A stretch of 64,000 nt of DNA from assembly GCF_000304475.1 (NCBI RefSeq), contig NC_018950.1, positions 310,001 through 374,000 of the forward strand. Reading direction: 5' to 3'. A model generated the notes under the pieces. It had not been told where the DNA came from and did no database searches. It saw only the letters and a list, made by a program, of their open reading frames with translations. Origin of the DNA: Kazachstania africana CBS 2517. Taxonomy: Eukaryota; Ascomycota; Saccharomycetes; Saccharomycetales; Saccharomycetaceae. Shown here in pieces: positions 1-10,725 of this stretch. The stretch's first letter is position 1. Each line of letters opens with the position of its first letter. The translations under genes and the position numbers were made by a program.

Positions 1-575
1 TGAAGTAATTGGAATATCTGGCAAACACTTGTATGGAATGTTCGTTTATACGTCCAAATGAATGTTCCAATCAATTTTGCTGCGGTATTTTGGCGTTCGT
101 CTCTCGTTTACGGTTGCAGATCGAAAGAGAATAAATGGCGTTATTTTGAAGAGAAGAAGTACGGGGAAAAATGTTCAATTTTGGTACCTTAAAGTGTATG
201 AGAAGCGAGATGATAACGGAAGACGCCATAGACGAAGGTCAATAATTCTCGCAACGGCTTGTTGAGCCATTCATTTTTAGTGTAAACTTGCGAACCGACA
301 GACGTGGAACCCCGCACCAAGAGTATCAGCGAAGCAGCCGTTCACTTGAAACCTTGGCTGAAATACGGAAAGGTATCGCTTGGGAGAAGGATCCATAACG
401 GTTCCGTCCGCCTCACGGAACCTGTACCTGAATTGACACTTCTTGGCTGAAAACATATAAAAGGGAAGTATAAAACGTCAAATTCAGATTCAAAATTCTA
501 TCTTTTTTCAATGGCATATTCAATTTTGATAAAATTGATATTTATATATACATCTACCCACCAACTCAAAATAAT
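1..575 (+). promoter_or_regulatory. Upstream region of the phenolic acid decarboxylase gene
   Basis: I see no credible gene here; a 67-codon frame at 62-265 is unsupported. A consensus TATA box (TATAAAAG) lies at 456-463, about 113 bp before the ATG at 576. ACGGAA occurs at 216-221, 365-370 and 415-420. The last copy is the right arm of a perfect 8-bp inverted repeat, GGTTCCGT (400-407) and ACGGAACC (415-422), with a 7-bp spacer. Paired CCG/CGG triplets are typical of binding sites for Zn2Cys6 transcription factors; that such a factor controls the gene is inference. Confidence 0.55.
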
Positions 576-1091
576 ATGCCTGCATTTGACAAACACGATT
601 TAAGCGGTTTTGCTGGTAAACACATTGTTTACACTTACGACAACGGCTGGAACTACGAAATTTACGTTAAAAATGAAAAGACAATCGACTACCGTATTCA
701 TTCTGGTATTGTTGGTGGTCGCTGGGTTAAAGATCAAGAAGTCTACATCGCTCGTGTCGGTGAACAAATTTACAAGATTTCATGGACTGAACCAACTGGT
801 ACTGACGTCAGTTTGACTGCCAATTTGACTGACTTAATATACCACGGTACCATCTTCTTCCCACGTTGGGTTATCAACGACCCAAAGAAGACTGTTTGCT
901 TCCAAAATGACTTCATCCCAAAGATGGAAGCCTATCGTGCCGAAGGTCCGGCCTACCCAACTGAAGTTATCGATGAATTCGCCACCATCACCTTTATTCA
1001 AGATGCTGGTCTCAATGATAATGATCTGATCAGTGTTCCACCTTCTGAGTTGCCACCAAACTTCCCAGAATGTCTACGTAAGAACAAATAA
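576..1091 (+). CDS. Phenolic acid decarboxylase, bacterial PadC type
   Basis: The 171-residue protein matches the small bacterial phenolic acid decarboxylases (PF05870 family, normally 160-180 residues), which remove CO2 from p-coumaric, ferulic and caffeic acid to give 4-vinylphenols without a cofactor. Visible family blocks are YTYDNGW (19-25), DYRIHSGIVGGRW (38-50), KISWTEPTGTDV (67-78) and HGTIFFPRWV. The catalytic set known from the bacterial enzymes is present: Tyr19, Tyr21, Arg49 and Glu72. The gene is complete and intronless, with a TATA box about 113 bp upstream. Codons are strongly biased to those preferred in yeast (GGT, GCT, CCA, AAG, TAC), suggesting high expression and long residence, though Arg is often CGT or CGC. 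It is unrelated to the prenyl-flavin PAD1/FDC1 system. S. cerevisiae has no such gene beside NNF2, so it was probably gained by transfer from bacteria or through another fungus. Likely cytosolic: no targeting signal is seen. Confidence 0.94.
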   Translation: MPAFDKHDLSGFAGKHIVYTYDNGWNYEIYVKNEKTIDYRIHSGIVGGRWVKDQEVYIARVGEQIYKISWTEPTGTDVSLTANLTDLIYHGTIFFPRWVINDPKKTVCFQNDFIPKMEAYRAEGPAYPTEVIDEFATITFIQDAGLNDNDLISVPPSELPPNFPECLRKNK

Positions 1092-1580: not shown

Positions 1581-4298
1581 ATGTTCCGTGGTGGCTGCAT
1601 AAGCCTATCTAGTAGGCATCGCTTCGAAGATACTTTGGCATTGTTCATAGTGTTTTTAAGTTTCAATCACTTCTCTTCACTATGTTTATTAGTCACTTTC
1701 ATTTTAATGACCAAATTCAAAAATTTTATCACCAATATGTTTATTACATTATTTCTTCAAAAGAAGCCTTCGCCTCGTATCGAAGAAGTTTCCCATATTG
1801 AGAGCGTAGGCTCTTTGTCTTCACAGTCCTCGTCCATGAAGGTCCCAAATGGTGCAGCTACTAGTAAAAAATTATCTCGCAATCAAAACACAAGTATCTT
1901 CAAAGAGAAATTCATATTGGCCCCATTTCTACACGCGGTAGTTGAGTTCACACTGGCTACAGTCCTGAAAGTATATGGAGGAAACTACTTCGTAGTGCCA
2001 ACTGAAAAGTTAGCAATTGCAATCATTGCCTCGTTTATGATTAACGATCCTGGTGATTGTTTAAGTTATGCTACTATTTGCACAGTCCTTTATGCAGTAT
2101 CAAGTAATATACTGAAGAGATTGGCCCCTTTCAACGACGGACCACCATTCGTTTTCTATCAATCAATAAAGACATTCCCATTGAAAAGTCCATTGATATC
2201 ATTTTTTTACAGATACTCTTTGATTCTGTTTAAATTGCTCCATTTGTTTGTCCCCACAATTCCTAACGAATGGAACAAATATATTACCCATCTTTGTTAC
2301 TATCTATCTTTGCACATTGTATACACACAGTTTGCAAGAAATACAGTATTTTCTAGCGATTCTCAGCAACCAGTGGCGAAGAAAAATAGTGTTTTACGTT
2401 CCTTATCCACGTCTTCTCCTCATGGTTTCAAGAGCCATCAAGCCAAAGATGAACTCCATCATCGAATTCCCTCTGCAACTTCTCAAAGAATTTTATCATC
2501 TTCATCAGCAAAAAATGATAATTCTTTGAACACAAATGTTATTAATGATAATCCAGCAGGTTTGAAAAACAATACTGCAAATATAGGAAAGTCAAACAAC
2601 AATAAAACTTTTGTTAATAATATTTTACCCCATTTCACTAATGTTGTTGGTCAAATCAAGACTTTTGAACCAACTGTGACCGTTCCAGAAAAGACCAACG
2701 TACAGACAGTCACTACTACTTCAACAGAAAAAAGTTCCAACACTTCTTCAAGTAACGTTGTGCTTTCAAACAATGAAAATAATTTTATAAATCAATTTTA
2801 TGAAATAGGTATTGAAAATCTGGACACTGAAATTTCAAGTGATTTGAAAACAGATATTACCGTAACATCAAATTTGGAAAATTTCATTAGGTATCTTTTT
2901 GAGGCTGATAAGAAAGTTTTAATTTCACCCCTTTGGTCCATTTTAGTCACTTTGAAAACTACAAATTTCGAAAAGAAATATTTGAAGGAATTTAAAGAAA
3001 CAAAAGAGAAAGTCGATGATTTAACTCCACTCAGCTCATCGAATGATGATACTATAACTCCAGTACCCTCTGTAGAAGAGCATGGACCGCACAATTCTCT
3101 TGATTACTCTGCAATTGACGGCAGGAAAAGGACTAAAAGTGTATTCAATCGTTCTGACGACCCCTTGAACTCTATGGCTTTGATTGCCCAGACAGCATCT
3201 GATGATTTTAGTCAATTGAACCTATTATCCACGAATGATAACATATTCAACAGAAAAGAAAACGATTATAAAGTCTGTATCGTGGAAATAGGTACGCATA
3301 GTTTAACGTTTCACATTGAAAATTTACACGACGGTGAACTCATCGTTCTGGTTAATGGACTTATTTGGTCTGAAGTCTCTTGTTCTTTGATTTTAGAGCA
3401 CGTTGGTGAAGAATATGTCGTTGTTAATGGGCTAGTACCTTCATGTTCTTATGACATACAATTTATTAATAGGTTAAATCAGACCGCAGTATTTTTTAAT
3501 ACCGACTTGATAATTAGAACAAAAGGTCAAGGTGATCGTAATGTGTCCGACGATTCAGCGGATAAGCTTTCTAAAAATTTTGAAAAGCTAGATCTTACTT
3601 TCCCATCTTATTACCATAGAAAATTTTTATCACCTTTATTGACATTAAAGCACTCTGTCCTGACCACAAATGCAAATTTATCAGATGAGAGGCTTAAACT
3701 GAAAAAAACAAAGAAAGAGATTACCAAAAAACTGAATGCATTTAAACAAGAAATTGACCATTTGAAGAACAAATTGAAACAAAATGCATCTACAGAGGAG
3801 AAGAATTCATCTAAAGTGGAAAATCTGAAAATTGCGCTTCAACAAAATGAAAATTCTGTAGCTGAATTAGAAGAAGAGTTTAAAAACGTAAGCAAGGATG
3901 AATTTGAGCTAGAAGATAGATACTTGGAGAAAAAAAATTATCATCTCAAAAAGGAATTAGAATTCAGTAAAGCTGAAGAAAATTTGAAGAAGAAATTAGA
4001 TGAAGTCACAGGTAAAATGGGAAAATTAGAAACCGAATACAACCAGTTGTTGTCAAGAAAGGAGAAATTAGAAGCTAGACGTGATAGGTTACAGAAAGAA
4101 TTGGACCAAAATAACGAAATATTTGAAGTATTCAAGGCTAATTTCCTTCAAAAGAAGGAGAAGGAAAGATCCAAGAGAGAAGATATAAGGGCTCGTGAGA
4201 TCAATGAATTGGAATTGCAAATTAAGGGTCTTGAGCAGGATATTAGCCGTCTAGAGGCTGAAAATGAGAGAATTCAACCAATTTTGAATCGTTATTAA
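1581..4298 (+). CDS. NNF2: Nnf2-like membrane and coiled-coil protein
   Basis: The 905-residue protein corresponds to S. cerevisiae Nnf2 (about 936 residues) by position directly before UTP22 and by architecture. The N-terminal quarter carries several hydrophobic stretches (about residues 18-45, 108-125, 140-160 and 200-225) that look like membrane segments. A long polar Ser/Asn/Thr-rich middle follows, and from about residue 690 to the C terminus there is a charged heptad-rich coiled coil. Nnf2 is poorly characterised; genetic and physical links to the RNA polymerase subunit Rpb8 have been reported in S. cerevisiae, and I can add no function from sequence. The start is the first ATG of the frame; Met43, just after the first hydrophobic segment, is an alternative. 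The family assignment rests mainly on synteny. Confidence 0.8.
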   Translation: MFRGGCISLSSRHRFEDTLALFIVFLSFNHFSSLCLLVTFILMTKFKNFITNMFITLFLQKKPSPRIEEVSHIESVGSLSSQSSSMKVPNGAATSKKLSRNQNTSIFKEKFILAPFLHAVVEFTLATVLKVYGGNYFVVPTEKLAIAIIASFMINDPGDCLSYATICTVLYAVSSNILKRLAPFNDGPPFVFYQSIKTFPLKSPLISFFYRYSLILFKLLHLFVPTIPNEWNKYITHLCYYLSLHIVYTQFARNTVFSSDSQQPVAKKNSVLRSLSTSSPHGFKSHQAKDELHHRIPSATSQRILSSSSAKNDNSLNTNVINDNPAGLKNNTANIGKSNNNKTFVNNILPHFTNVVGQIKTFEPTVTVPEKTNVQTVTTTSTEKSSNTSSSNVVLSNNENNFINQFYEIGIENLDTEISSDLKTDITVTSNLENFIRYLFEADKKVLISPLWSILVTLKTTNFEKKYLKEFKETKEKVDDLTPLSSSNDDTITPVPSVEEHGPHNSLDYSAIDGRKRTKSVFNRSDDPLNSMALIAQTASDDFSQLNLLSTNDNIFNRKENDYKVCIVEIGTHSLTFHIENLHDGELIVLVNGLIWSEVSCSLILEHVGEEYVVVNGLVPSCSYDIQFINRLNQTAVFFNTDLIIRTKGQGDRNVSDDSADKLSKNFEKLDLTFPSYYHRKFLSPLLTLKHSVLTTNANLSDERLKLKKTKKEITKKLNAFKQEIDHLKNKLKQNASTEEKNSSKVENLKIALQQNENSVAELEEEFKNVSKDEFELEDRYLEKKNYHLKKELEFSKAEENLKKKLDEVTGKMGKLETEYNQLLSRKEKLEARRDRLQKELDQNNEIFEVFKANFLQKKEKERSKREDIRAREINELELQIKGLEQDISRLEAENERIQPILNRY

Positions 4299-5300: not shown

Positions 5301-8300
5301 ATGGTTACAACGAAGAGAAAAGCCTCTGAACTTACAGAGTCAGGCGATATTACAACTTCCAATAAGAAGGTTAGTTTGAAAAGTGACATAGAAAATGATA
5401 CAAAGCTCACTGAACAGCATTTAAGTCATAGTGATGAGGATGATACGAGCGATGAGGACGAAGAATCACAAGTGAAAAGTAAGAATACAGCAAAGAATAG
5501 TAGCACAGCATCTCAAGATATACATATAGCGAGAGAAACAGCAGAGTTATTCAAATCAAACATCTTCAAATTACAAATAGATGAACTACTAGAACAAGTC
5601 AAATTAAAAGAGTCTCACGTTTTAAAAGTGGAAAAATTTTTACATAAATTATATGACCTTATTCAACAAGTTCCTGAGTGGGAATCAAAATCTATGTCAG
5701 AAGTCAACTCATTTTTCAAAGATAAGGTCGTTTCTGTTCCATTCGTTGATCCAAGGCCTTCTGAAGCAACAACTAAATACAAATTTGATTATAAGAGACC
5801 AGATGTATCTTTGATTGGTTCCTTTGCATTAAAATCCGGTATGTACCAACCTCAAGGTTCTGTCATAGACGTACTATTAACCATGCCGGAGTCTTTATTT
5901 GAGAAAAAAGATTATTTAAATTTCAGATGTTTACATAAGAGAAGTGTCTATTTGGCTTACTTAACTCACCATCTATCAATTTTGTTTGCCAAGGAAAAAC
6001 TAGATAGTTTCCTGGCTTTAGAATACTCTTACTTCAATAATGATCCACTATTACCAATTTTAACTTTGAATTGCCAAAAGCCAATAGAAGATCAACATAA
6101 TGAACTAAATTTCTATAAGACAAAATTTTCAATCAATTTAATTATTGGATTCCCATCCGAGATATTTGAACCAAAAAAATTATTACCAAATAAGAATTGT
6201 ATTAGAGTAGCGAACGAAGAAAATGCATTACCTGCCACACCACTCTACAATTTTGCAATCCTTTCCTCATCTACCCACGAAACCTATCTAAAGTACCTTT
6301 ACAAAGCAAAGAAACAAACTGAATCATTCCAAGAAGCAATAATATTAGGTAGATTATGGTTACACCAAAGAGGTTTCTCTTCAAAATCATCACATTCTGG
6401 CTCTCTAAGTGGGTTTGGAACCTTTGAATTCACTGTGCTTATGGCTGCCTTGTTAAATGGTGGCGGTGTCAACGGTAATAAAATCTTATTACACGGTTTC
6501 TCATCATACCAGTTATTCAAAGGTGTTATAAAATATCTAGCCACTATGGATCTTTGCGATAATGGCCATCTACAATTCCACTCTGATATTAACTATGCTG
6601 CATCCCTTTCCAAATACGTCCAAGAAGGTTTTCAAACCCCTACTTTGTTCGATAAAACTACAAAAGTCAATATCCTAACAAAAATGACAGCTAGCTCATA
6701 TCAGGCTTTGAAAGTATATGCAAAGGAAACTTTAGCAATGCTAAATAATGTTGTTCAAGACCAATTTTCCAATATTTTCTTAACTAATATCGGTAAACTA
6801 GATCAATTGAAGTATGATATGTGCTTTAATGTTTACTTTCCACAAGTCGGCAATGGTCCTTCCGCTTCAATCTTGACATCCAAATTCACTGCAAGTGAAA
6901 GAGTAAAATTCATTACTGCCGAAAATTTTCTAGTCAATAAGATAACGAGTGTTCTTAAATTCGCACTCGGTGATAGAATCAATGCCTTGGAAGTTGAATT
7001 AGCAGGCCAAAGATCAAGCTTCCCAGTTTCAAAGAGAAAAGTCCATTCTAATGGCTTAAATTTGCGTTGTATCAAAATTAAGCTGTTAACTAACCCAATG
7101 GAATCTGAGAAGTTGGTTACCAAGGGCCCAGCTCATTTTGAAGAGGTCACACCAGAAGCTGCTCTGTTTAAAGATTTCTGGGGTCCAAAATCTTCCTTAC
7201 GTCGTTTCAAAGATGGCTCCATTATAAACAGTTGTGTCTGGTCCACATCTTCATCTGAGCCAATTGTCTCTGCCATAGTAGATTTTGTATTGAAGAGACA
7301 TATTTCTGAAAAAATAAGGATAGAAAACAACATCACAAGACAAATACAAGATTTATTGCCACTACCTAACCTACCAGCAAGTTCTAATACCTCTGTACTA
7401 AACTTAACAAGCTTTTTCAATTTGAAAAAGTCGTTTGATGAATTATACAAGATTATGTTCAAGATGAAATTACCACTATCTATTAAATCATTATTACCTG
7501 TCGGCTCTGCATTTAGATACACAAGTCTTTGCCAACCGGTTCCATTTGCATATGCCAATCCAGATTTCCTTCAGGATGTTATCTTAGAATTTGAGACATC
7601 ACCAAAATGGCCAGATGAAATTTCTTCCTTGGAAAAATCAAAAACTGCATTCTTATTGAAAATTCAAGAGCAGCTAGCTTCTCAGTATGGTAGTCAATAT
7701 AAATCTTTCTTCACTCGTGATGAGGTAGTTCCATTCAATTTAGACGTCACCGCCTTAAATGTTTTAACTCCCGAAGGTTATGGGTTCAGATTCAAAGTTT
7801 TAACTGAACGAGACGAAATTCTATATCTAAGAGCCATATCCAATGCAAGAAATGAGGTCAAACCAGAATTAGAAAAAACATTTTTAAGTTTCACATCAGC
7901 ATATCTTGCCTCAGTTAGACATACAAGAACCATTGAAAACATCTCTCATTCATACCAATTTTATTCTCCAACTGTGAGACTCTTCAAGAAATGGCTAGAT
8001 ACACATTTACTGCTCGGTCACTTAAAAGAAGAACTTGTAGAGCTAATTGCAATCAAACCATTTGTTGATCATGCTCCATATTCTATCCCAGGTTCCGTAG
8101 AAAATGGGTTCTTGAAGATACTGAAATTTTTAAGTCAATGGAATTGGAAGGAAGATCCAATGATTTTAGATTTAGTAAAGCCAGAAGAGAGCTTTGATAG
8201 TTCTTTTGAAACCAGTATTGGTGCCAATGATTTGGATTCTGCTACTATGAAGAGACTTTCAGAAAATCTTACGCTGGCTCAATACAAGGATATCCAATCC

Positions 8301-8942
8301 AATTTTGCAAATTTAAGAAAGGGCGATCCAAATGGTTTACATGTTCAATTTTTTGTCGCTTCTAGAAACGACCCCAGTGGTATCCTATATTCCAGTGCCA
8401 TTCCTTTAGCTATTGCCACTAGATTGACTGCATTAGCTAAGGTCGCTACTAACCTAATCCAGGCACACGGATTAAACGAAGAAACAATAAACTTACTATT
8501 CACTCCAGGATTGAATGACTATGATTTCATTGCTCGCTTGAAAGTCCCATTCAGTATGAAAACTTCCTGTGGTGTTTTGGAAAGCACAGAATTCAAAAAC
8601 TTAACCTCATCTGGGTCTGCTTTCCCAGAGAACTTGGATGAACTAAGTGAAAAAATGGATCCAACATACCATTTAGTTAAGTATCTGAATATGAAGTACA
8701 AAAACAGTTTGATTTTTTCGAGCCATAGATATATTGGAGTAAATGGAGGCAAGAAAGGTGATAGAAATGTGATTACTGGTTTAATAAAGCCAATGTTCAA
8801 GAAACAACAGAAATTTCGTGTAAATATGGATTGTAACGTTAAGCCTGTTGATAATGAAAGTGTAGTTTTGAATAAGGAGGCTATATTTAATGAGATTGCT
8901 GCATTCGGAGACCAACTCATAGTAGATTTTCAGTCCCATTAA
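5301..8942 (+). CDS. UTP22: Utp22, U3 processome / UTP-C subunit
   Basis: The 1213-residue protein corresponds to Utp22 (1237 residues in S. cerevisiae; Nrap family). Utp22 is a nucleolar scaffold of the 90S pre-ribosome that binds Rrp7 in the UTP-C subcomplex, is needed for early pre-rRNA cleavage and 18S maturation, and also links to Ifh1 and CK2. An acidic low-complexity stretch at about residues 43-60 precedes the repeated nucleotidyltransferase-like and poly(A)-polymerase-like modules of the Nrap fold; I see no intact catalytic triad, as expected for this degenerate family. Length and the flanking genes NNF2 and PRP31 match S. cerevisiae. The upstream region carries RRPE and PAC-like motifs, consistent with control as part of the ribosome-biogenesis regulon. 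Confidence 0.95.
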   Translation: MVTTKRKASELTESGDITTSNKKVSLKSDIENDTKLTEQHLSHSDEDDTSDEDEESQVKSKNTAKNSSTASQDIHIARETAELFKSNIFKLQIDELLEQVKLKESHVLKVEKFLHKLYDLIQQVPEWESKSMSEVNSFFKDKVVSVPFVDPRPSEATTKYKFDYKRPDVSLIGSFALKSGMYQPQGSVIDVLLTMPESLFEKKDYLNFRCLHKRSVYLAYLTHHLSILFAKEKLDSFLALEYSYFNNDPLLPILTLNCQKPIEDQHNELNFYKTKFSINLIIGFPSEIFEPKKLLPNKNCIRVANEENALPATPLYNFAILSSSTHETYLKYLYKAKKQTESFQEAIILGRLWLHQRGFSSKSSHSGSLSGFGTFEFTVLMAALLNGGGVNGNKILLHGFSSYQLFKGVIKYLATMDLCDNGHLQFHSDINYAASLSKYVQEGFQTPTLFDKTTKVNILTKMTASSYQALKVYAKETLAMLNNVVQDQFSNIFLTNIGKLDQLKYDMCFNVYFPQVGNGPSASILTSKFTASERVKFITAENFLVNKITSVLKFALGDRINALEVELAGQRSSFPVSKRKVHSNGLNLRCIKIKLLTNPMESEKLVTKGPAHFEEVTPEAALFKDFWGPKSSLRRFKDGSIINSCVWSTSSSEPIVSAIVDFVLKRHISEKIRIENNITRQIQDLLPLPNLPASSNTSVLNLTSFFNLKKSFDELYKIMFKMKLPLSIKSLLPVGSAFRYTSLCQPVPFAYANPDFLQDVILEFETSPKWPDEISSLEKSKTAFLLKIQEQLASQYGSQYKSFFTRDEVVPFNLDVTALNVLTPEGYGFRFKVLTERDEILYLRAISNARNEVKPELEKTFLSFTSAYLASVRHTRTIENISHSYQFYSPTVRLFKKWLDTHLLLGHLKEELVELIAIKPFVDHAPYSIPGSVENGFLKILKFLSQWNWKEDPMILDLVKPEESFDSSFETSIGANDLDSATMKRLSENLTLAQYKDIQSNFANLRKGDPNGLHVQFFVASRNDPSGILYSSAIPLAIATRLTALAKVATNLIQAHGLNEETINLLFTPGLNDYDFIARLKVPFSMKTSCGVLESTEFKNLTSSGSAFPENLDELSEKMDPTYHLVKYLNMKYKNSLIFSSHRYIGVNGGKKGDRNVITGLIKPMFKKQQKFRVNMDCNVKPVDNESVVLNKEAIFNEIAAFGDQLIVDFQSH

Positions 8943-9204: not shown

Positions 9205-10725
9205 ATGAGTGATGAAGAAGATTTCTTAAAAGATTTAGAAGAAGACTTGGAAGACTTTTCTGCCAATGAGGAAGAGAATTTTGAGCAAAAGGAGGGGTCA
9301 TTAAGTGAAGCGAACAAGGAAGAAGTGGTAAAGCATATGGATGGGAAAGCAGTTGAGGACGACCTCACTATATTGAAAAAGTCAGCTGGTGCTAATGAGC
9401 CATTTATGTTGGCAAGGGCAGATTTGGTTACGATAGATCCGTCATCCATATCTAATATATACCAGCTTTCCAGCAGAATATCGCATATTTTATTGCAGCA
9501 TAATTCAAAGTTTACCATGTTGCTCCCGTATTTGAATCAAATATCATTGAATTTAAGGACTGAAACAGCAAATCTACATGAATATTTAAAACTTTCATAC
9601 TCAGCACGGTTTTCTGAATTGGAATCTCTGATTGCAACAGCTACCCAATATTCTAACGTCATATATGTACTAGAGACAAGCGAGAAAGATACGGAGGGAT
9701 CTCTTGTTACTTCCTTGGAACAAGTAGCACAACTTTCAAAGGAACAGATTCTAGTGTTAATGATGTCCATGAAAACCTCATTCAATGAGTCAACTCCATT
9801 ACCCTTGGAGATCAAACAAAGACTTCTTCGGGCAAGAGAAATGATAATAACTTTGGATGAACTACGTCATACCATTGCATCATATATATCCTCTAAGGTC
9901 TACCACATTGCGCCTAATCTATGTGCACTTCTCGGTTCTGAGATTACTGCACTTTTAGTTTCTCATGCAGGTGATATTCTCCAGTTAAGCCAGGTCCCAA
10001 ATTGCAACCTTGCCTCTATAGGTAAAAAAAAACACTTATCGCATGAACTACACACGACTGCAAGTGGTGTAAGACAAGAGGGTTATATATATAATTCTGA
10101 GTTGGTACAGGAAACACCAGTTGGGAGTAGGAAACAAATGCTGCGAATGCTATGTGCAAAGGTTGCCCTTGCAGCAAGAGTTGATGCAGGCCTTAATCAA
10201 TCCAACCCAGACGATTCCTTGGGAAGACAGTGGAGAGATGAGCTTCTCACTAAGGTGAAAAAGATCAATGAAGCACCAAATGTATCGGATACTAAAGCGT
10301 TACCAATTCCAGAAGATAAACCGAAGAAGAAAAGAGCAGGAAGAAAGTTTAGAAAGTATAAACAGCAATTCCAACTGTCTCATTTGAGACAGTTACAAAA
10401 CAGAATGGAGTTTGGGAAACAGGAGACTTCTATCATGGATGCCTTCGGAGAAGAAGTCGGTCTCGGAATGACCAACACAAGCATGCAGACAGTTTCAGGT
10501 ATTGTAGGAGGGTCTGGAAGGAACGTTAACAACTCTGCCAAGATGTCGAAGTCTATGAAACAAAGAATCAAAGACACAGACAAACAAGCGAAAGAGTATC
10601 TCATTTCATTAAATGAATTTTCAAATGGAACAGGCTCCACAGGGCATTCCCGACCCAGCAAGATACAAAAACAGGACCCAAATCCTGACCACGATTGGTT
10701 CTCACATCATCTACCACCATCATAA
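9205..10725 (+). CDS. PRP31: Prp31, U4/U6.U5 tri-snRNP splicing factor
   Basis: The 506-residue protein corresponds to Prp31 (494 residues in S. cerevisiae), which binds the 15.5K/Snu13-U4 snRNA complex and tethers U4/U6 to U5 in the nucleus. The N terminus is very acidic. A Nop domain spans about residues 235-375, beginning with APNLCALLGSE and containing the ASIGKKKH-type turn; it is shared with the snoRNP proteins Nop56 and Nop58. A basic segment rich in Lys and Arg (about 370-400) precedes the C-terminal tail. The ATG at 9205 follows a short leader in another frame. Its promoter has PAC and RRPE-like motifs normally seen on ribosome-biogenesis genes. Confidence 0.95.
   Translation: MSDEEDFLKDLEEDLEDFSANEEENFEQKEGSLSEANKEEVVKHMDGKAVEDDLTILKKSAGANEPFMLARADLVTIDPSSISNIYQLSSRISHILLQHNSKFTMLLPYLNQISLNLRTETANLHEYLKLSYSARFSELESLIATATQYSNVIYVLETSEKDTEGSLVTSLEQVAQLSKEQILVLMMSMKTSFNESTPLPLEIKQRLLRAREMIITLDELRHTIASYISSKVYHIAPNLCALLGSEITALLVSHAGDILQLSQVPNCNLASIGKKKHLSHELHTTASGVRQEGYIYNSELVQETPVGSRKQMLRMLCAKVALAARVDAGLNQSNPDDSLGRQWRDELLTKVKKINEAPNVSDTKALPIPEDKPKKKRAGRKFRKYKQQFQLSHLRQLQNRMEFGKQETSIMDAFGEEVGLGMTNTSMQTVSGIVGGSGRNVNNSAKMSKSMKQRIKDTDKQAKEYLISLNEFSNGTGSTGHSRPSKIQKQDPNPDHDWFSHHLPPS

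Follow-up and report, generated by a model that had tools for sequence, protein, structure and literature searches.

A PadC-type phenolic acid decarboxylase gene of probable bacterial origin and its altered head-to-head neighbour in Kazachstania africana

The stretch of DNA analysed here (the window; 64,000 bp, C11:310001-374000) comes from the 11,130,140-base, 12-contig genome of Kazachstania africana CBS 2517, and close to its left end lies a gene, called PAD1 in the following, whose product is a phenolic acid decarboxylase (PAD) of the bacterial PadC type. How a yeast chromosome came to hold such a gene, and what this gene and a second family member facing it, PAD2, may do there, was the question addressed. 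PAD1 and PAD2 as used here are distinct from the S. cerevisiae gene pair PAD1/FDC1. The features that the argument needs are as follows.

1..575, no strand: right-hand 575 bp of the 901 bp that separate the head-to-head genes PAD1 and PAD2
400..422, no strand: perfect palindrome GGTTCCGT-N7-ACGGAACC, 23 bp with 8-bp arms, upstream of PAD1; weak candidate for a regulator site
456..463, + strand: TATA box TATAAAAG, assigned by consensus match alone, starting 120 bp before the PAD1 ATG
576..1091, + strand: PAD1, PadC-type phenolic acid decarboxylase, 171 aa, assigned by open reading frame, PF05870 profile and residue check
1581..4298, + strand: gene flanking PAD1 on the right, placed where NNF2 is expected and assigned by gene order; a 905-aa open reading frame with no Pfam match over the cut-off
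5301..8942, + strand: UTP22/Nrap, native yeast anchor gene with six Nrap domains
9205..10725, + strand: PRP31, native yeast anchor gene with Nop and Prp31_C domains
G000:C11:309153-309674 (L003:7153-7674), outside the window, - strand: PAD2 (KAFR_0K01490), 173 aa, assigned by PF05870
L003:6375-7091, outside the window, beyond PAD2: HSP31-like gene KAFR_0K01480, assigned by homology to S. cerevisiae YDR533c

The PAD1 protein and its chromosomal setting

PAD1, presumably KAFR_0K01500 judging from the tags of the neighbouring genes, was an intact reading frame running from ATG to stop with 0 internal stops. Its protein scored 285.3 bits against PF05870 (cut-off, 24.6), with residues 9-166 aligned over the full length of the profile (positions 1-158 of 158), and its nearest solved structures were the Enterobacter ferulic acid decarboxylases (3nx1 and 4uu3, E about 1e-89), which bears out the PadC-type assignment made in the preliminary description. 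The catalytic residues listed there, Tyr19, Tyr21, Arg49 and Glu72, were all four kept at the numbering of the Enterobacter enzyme, and the same residues are named as catalytic in passages of PMC5488193 and PMC13358373. Trp25, Tyr27 and Glu134, which a section of PMC3025021 describes as further residues probed in the Enterobacter enzyme, were present as well. The NCBIfam search gave no match for PAD1 or PAD2. Upstream of the gene, the consensus TATA box described earlier was located at 456-463. The palindrome at 400..422 was unique genome-wide at up to 2 mismatches; however, a control pattern read backwards gave 2 matches per strand, and because of this control the palindrome was given no weight.

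A genome-wide search with PF05870 recovered two genes, PAD1 and PAD2, both at this one locus, where they face each other across 901 bp. On the right side, the NNF2-UTP22 block beside which PAD1 had been placed was confirmed for UTP22 by its Nrap domains, while the 905-aa frame is taken to be NNF2 from the S. cerevisiae gene order; beyond PRP31, a protein kinase gene occupied the DBF2 position. The left block consisted of an IF-2B-domain gene, which we take to be GCD2, a gene without Pfam match, a tRNA-Gly gene, and PIL1. These flanks match the S. cerevisiae chromosome VII order GCD2-PIL1-(PDC6-CTT1)-NNF2-UTP22, and the PDC6-CTT1 slot of that order here holds the HSP31 gene and the two PAD genes. 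The single catalase match of the genome lay on another contig (C5:588494-589645). A repeat scan of L003:5000-9500 detected short imperfect repeats only and nothing that would point to a mobile element. The flanking of PAD1 by native yeast genes argues against contamination.

Codon usage and bacterial affinities of PAD1

Yeast-optimal codons, scored with the list of optimal codons of S. cerevisiae, made up 0.727 of PAD1 compared with 48.8% expected, and the maximum reached in 2000 random draws from the window codon usage was 0.606, whereas PAD2 with 49.4% was as expected from the window ORFs. The yeast-adapted codons that had been attributed to PAD1 are thus real, and together with the chromosomal context they support the earlier view of it as an established gene; judged by its codons, PAD1 would also be strongly expressed. 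The arginines tell of another history, as CGN codons encoded 6/6 of them in PAD1 and 5/7 in PAD2, compared with 23% in 23 window ORFs, one of which reaches 57%. If codons are treated as independent, the chance of these counts is 1.6e-4 for PAD1 and 0.009 for PAD2. CGN encoded 573/580 arginines in 80 bacterial PAD loci, versus 2/46 in the HSP31 twins and a gene that we take to be MET6. In PAD1 and PAD2 alike, the CGN-rich arginines were read as a relic of bacterial codon usage. By its codons, PAD1 has the appearance of a bacterial transfer that is partly ameliorated.

The protein search with PAD1 yielded 1413 matches, 120 of which were listed, and among the 119 listed non-self matches all the rows named by organism (30/30) were bacterial. 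A 95-row tree was then built from rows picked among 141 homologues and 80 loci, and fungal PADs were left out of this and all other trees, so that the phylogeny of PF05870 proposed earlier, with bacterial and fungal members, was run for its bacterial members. PAD1 fell within a 13-row betaproteobacterial set (Formivibrio, Uliginosibacterium, Paludibacterium, Rubrivivax) with 99/96 support, adjoining the row P0002 (95/90). Consistently, PAD1 grouped with the beta rows in a 38-row tree without PAD2 (100/97, the bootstrap being not fully settled), and its placement on the Vibrio/Celerinatantimonas side was rejected for the 38-row set (AU p 0.0059), the groups for this and the AU tests below having been named after a first tree was seen. 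At the 13 diagnostic columns, which are those separating 12 beta-clade rows from 77 gamma loci, PAD1 carried 10 beta, 2 gamma and 1 other residues.

The two parts of the protein differed in this respect. Residues 1-105 alone retained the beta placement (100/98), whereas residues 106-168 alone (63 columns) were nearest to Celerinatantimonas, without support, and residues 105-139 (window 888-992) matched the Celerinatantimonas diazotrophica PAD at all 35 positions, a longer exact run than with any other homologue compared. This Celerinatantimonas-like C-terminal part makes a mosaic or a gene conversion possible. At synonymous sites, no excess sharing was found between PAD1 and PAD2, nor between PAD1 and the bacterial loci compared with it (3 beta and 26 gamma); the result for the bacteria indicates that the transfer was not very recent or that the donor is unsampled. 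Of two further pairs in this test, an Enterobacter-Citrobacter pair showed an excess and a beta-clade gene pair showed none. Synonymous sharing was rejected as a clock and gives no date other than "saturated". A point against a beta donor is that PAD is rare in the order to which one beta relative belongs, with 3/399 sampled genomes positive, that relative included and one of them only at E 4e-4.

PadC-type genes were also observed on 81 records of a 72,556-record plasmid collection, 60 of them from Pantoea, which indicates that it can move from one bacterium to another.

Horizontal transfer, as proposed in the preliminary description, is supported by the betaproteobacterial nesting and the bacterial arginine codons, and we hold it very probable that PAD1 is a bacterial PAD gained by the K. 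africana lineage from a donor with a betaproteobacterial-type padC and later tuned to yeast codons. The gene would have passed from such a bacterium into the nuclear genome of this lineage, where it now has PIL1 on one side and the NNF2-position gene on the other, and would then have adapted its codons to the yeast, with the arginine codons still bacterial.

The earlier text had left the donor between bacteria and another fungus, and bacteria are favoured by the named matches, the beta nesting and the arginine codons. Arrival via another fungus rather than straight from a bacterium appears improbable, although passages of PMC3314683 place PadC-like proteins in Dekkera, Meyerozyma, and several ascomycetes and basidiomycetes. 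The uniformly bacterial named rows among the matches listed speak against it, as do the persisting CGN arginines. Further, the position at which all fungal PADs analysed carry a His according to a section of PMC10886158, that of Val91 in B. subtilis, corresponds to Val99 in both PAD1 and PAD2 (an offset of 8 from the structure alignment, which assumes that the numbering of that paper is the chain index). The same section gives basidiomycete PAD sequences a similarity of <50% with bacterial and yeast PADs. The closest row, P0002, could in principle be a yeast; K. africana was the only yeast given by name among the PAD matches listed, which are annotated proteins (120 of 1413 for PAD1, all 30 for PAD2). 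HSP31 matches in the same protein database carried the names of many yeasts, and one entry stood under Monosporozyma servazzii, formerly placed in Kazachstania. It is hardly credible that an ancient fungal PAD was inherited vertically and lost from the other yeasts, which had already been judged the less likely course, or that the assembly is contaminated. The patchy occurrence of PADs across yeasts, as reported in part of PMC3314683, would fit such a loss, but PAD1 nests in a betaproteobacterial clade, bears the bacterial codon relic, sits seamlessly among native genes on a 547,686-bp contig, and is one of two copies, one of which is strongly yeast-adapted in codons. Transfer directly from a bacterium remains the preferred reading of PAD1.

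PAD2 and the number of transfers

PAD2 and PAD1 shared 56% identity over 169 residues, and PAD2 scored 261.3 bits against PF05870 at the same cut-off of 24.6; a TATA-like box started 79 bp before the PAD2 ATG. The residues of PAD2 were compared with 221 other family rows, namely 141 homologues, a few of them fragments, and 80 named bacterial loci (216 distinct, gaps uncounted). Arg49, which is Arg in 220/220 of the other rows, was replaced by Leu, Tyr27 (219/219) by Cys, Trp25 (219/219) by Phe, and Thr106 (221/221) by Val. PAD2 also differed at Ile41 (220/220), Phe95 (221/221), and Thr71, which is Thr in 214/220. In contrast, Tyr19, Tyr21, Asn23, Glu72 and Glu134 were kept, so that the catalytic set Tyr19/Tyr21/Arg49/Glu72 is incomplete through the loss of Arg49. 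A pocket altered in this way, at seven positions that hardly vary or do not vary at all in the other rows, and with the phenolate-holding Tyr pair and Glu72 kept, was not seen in the other family rows examined.

For the Enterobacter enzyme, passages of PMC3025021 report that Y27A abolishes activity and that W25A cuts Vmax by 93.5%, a part of PMC5488193 reports that Y27F is still active in a nucleophile-addition reaction, and Arg49 is described as essential in a passage of PMC13358373. The structure model of PAD2 had a mean pLDDT of 83.9 and matched solved PADs (Foldseek E 2.9e-22, TM 0.76-0.78, rmsd 5.8); the low block confidence of 56-66 at residues 101-130 led us to leave the pocket geometry unread. 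By its sequence, PAD2 appears to be a family relative that has kept the fold and not the decarboxylase pocket, and its decarboxylase activity is most likely lost or changed, which would make it a pseudoenzyme or a protein with new chemistry.

The PAD2 reading frame was unbroken despite a very long tree branch, which suggests that the gene has been maintained. The pairwise dN/dS of PAD1 and PAD2 was 0.33/2.15, with dS saturated; this ratio was dropped as proof of selection on PAD2, because separate origins, which are possible, would make it mostly a record of bacterial history, and the claim is therefore limited to PAD2 being intact.

Two accounts of the pair were weighed. If there was one transfer, PAD2 would be a duplicate of PAD1 made inside the yeast, which diverged fast after its catalytic residues were lost; the adjacent, head-to-head arrangement and the CGN-rich arginines of both genes agree with this, as do Gly48, Phe113 and Pro156, which both proteins have and each of which occurs in <10% of 89 compared rows, although the motifs holding these residues were found in 7 to 15 of 141 homologues. 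AU tests did not reject a PAD1+PAD2 pair (p 0.323 and 0.375), and the pair was likewise retained when joined to the beta rows (p 0.457) or the Vibrio rows (p 0.216). However, PAD2 had more residues identical with Vibrio furnissii (107) than with PAD1 (95) or P0002 (93) among the nine sequences compared, and its observed gamma-minus-beta similarity was reached in 0/300 simulations on the duplication tree, under LG+F+G4 as well as under C20, while two weaker statistics were reached in 11/300 and 5/300 of the C20 simulations. Duplication is thus a serious possibility, held tentatively and at somewhat less than even chances.

The same simulations support a second account, that genes from two bacterial sources, one beta-type and one Vibrio/Celerinatantimonas-type, came to lie side by side, and that gene conversion perhaps gave PAD1 its C-terminal part, which resembles Celerinatantimonas. 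When PAD1 was omitted, PAD2 joined the Vibrio/Celerinatantimonas side (100/97), and at the 13 diagnostic columns it carried 6 gamma, 2 beta and 5 other residues. Yet the PAD2 branch amounts to 2 to 4 changes per column, so that its placement is fragile, and PAD2 with the beta rows was not rejected (AU p 0.222). The separate-origin tree itself reached the main statistic in only 13/300 C20 simulations, which makes the C20 fit uncomfortable here too, compared with 28% of the LG+F+G4 simulations, and parsimony counts against two insertions at one site. We give two sources a little less than an even chance and slightly favour them over duplication, since the simulations point to a second transfer and the AU tests reject neither.

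Pantoea plasmids with two PAD places were considered as a joint source and rejected: only one PAD was annotated in the P. agglomerans region examined (10.5 kb), so that in this region the two places do not lie next to each other. A motif scan of 80 bacterial loci, with up to 2 kb of flank each, found no second PAD.

Possible roles, known parallels and meaning

The K. africana genome gave 0 matches to the UbiD family (PF01977) and 0 to the UbiX-type Pad1 (TIGR00421) in searches that were positive in 9/14 and 11/14 control genomes, respectively, all of them prokaryotic. Three PF02441 matches lay in open frames of 463, 680 and 595 aa, and the two inspected have long acidic tails, presumably as in Hal3/Cab3 proteins. 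With neither UbiD nor UbiX matched, PAD1 is the sole candidate for making vinylphenols among the families searched, the altered PAD2 apart. The S. cerevisiae pair Pad1/Fdc1 (UbiX/UbiD, with prenylated FMN) carries out the same overall conversion of ferulic and coumaric acid, with proteins and a cofactor chemistry unrelated to the PadC type. PAD1 would probably serve in detoxification, replacing this absent pair; activity, expression and role are all deduced from the genome.

The HSP31 gene that adjoins the PAD genes encodes an ordinary protein of yeasts. It has a twin on C9 (KAFR_0I02470, L090:4520-5245) that is 84% identical to KAFR_0K01480 (dN 0.075, dS 1.04); an ORF two frames from this twin is, we assume, glycogen-phosphorylase-like. 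In S. cerevisiae, the end of chromosome IV carries HSP31 close to the PAD1/FDC1 pair. This is possibly an accidental parallel, and that HSP31 and the PADs share a role in detoxification is a guess. A fuller scenario, which we think unlikely as a whole, is that PADs gained from two bacterial groups form a small detoxification cluster with the duplicated, glyoxalase-type HSP31, and that PAD2 has been remodelled into an enzyme or a binding protein, for example hydratase-like or product-binding, that works with the decarboxylase and possibly forms a heterodimer with it.

Among known systems, the ferulic acid decarboxylase of Enterobacter sp. Px6-4 (FADase/FDC_Es; 3nx1, 3nx2, 4uu3; PF05870) matches PAD1 over the full length, with like residues and numbering, while PAD1 is encoded in the nuclear genome of a yeast and falls on the beta branch instead of the enterobacterial one, and PAD2 lacks Arg49, Tyr27 and Trp25 of that enzyme. 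Dekkera/Brettanomyces bruxellensis and Meyerozyma (Candida) guilliermondii are likewise yeasts with a PadC-family protein, and for Dekkera the absence of a Pad1p homologue together with the presence of a PadC-like gene is a published parallel (passages of PMC3314683, which also note that an unrelated Pst2-like protein has been claimed for D. anomala). These two are budding-yeast lineages other than Kazachstania, and they are likened here by their published description. URA1 of Saccharomycetaceae is also a metabolic gene of bacterial descent that has become established in yeast chromosomes (PMC5499181, in part), but it is another gene in another lineage, and K. africana has two genes, one of which is remodelled. 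Yeast genes acquired from bacteria are thus already in print, as are PadC-type enzymes of a few yeasts, and a full-text literature search, with most subscription journals outside its coverage, found no published account of the PAD1/PAD2 pair.

The locus presents a yeast with no detectable prFMN-dependent Pad1/Fdc1 that carries an unrelated enzyme of bacterial type, predicted to catalyse the same reaction without a cofactor. The interior, syntenic position of PAD1 makes related yeasts comparable there, and its codons would catch amelioration half-way, yeast-optimal overall and bacterial in the arginines. For the organism, the prediction is that a Kazachstania yeast may form phenolic off-flavour (4-vinylguaiacol and 4-vinylphenol). 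For the family, PAD2 would be a natural experiment on the PAD fold after changes of the catalytic Arg and of pocket residues, and the pair with its remodelled PAD2 is the part most worth experiment.
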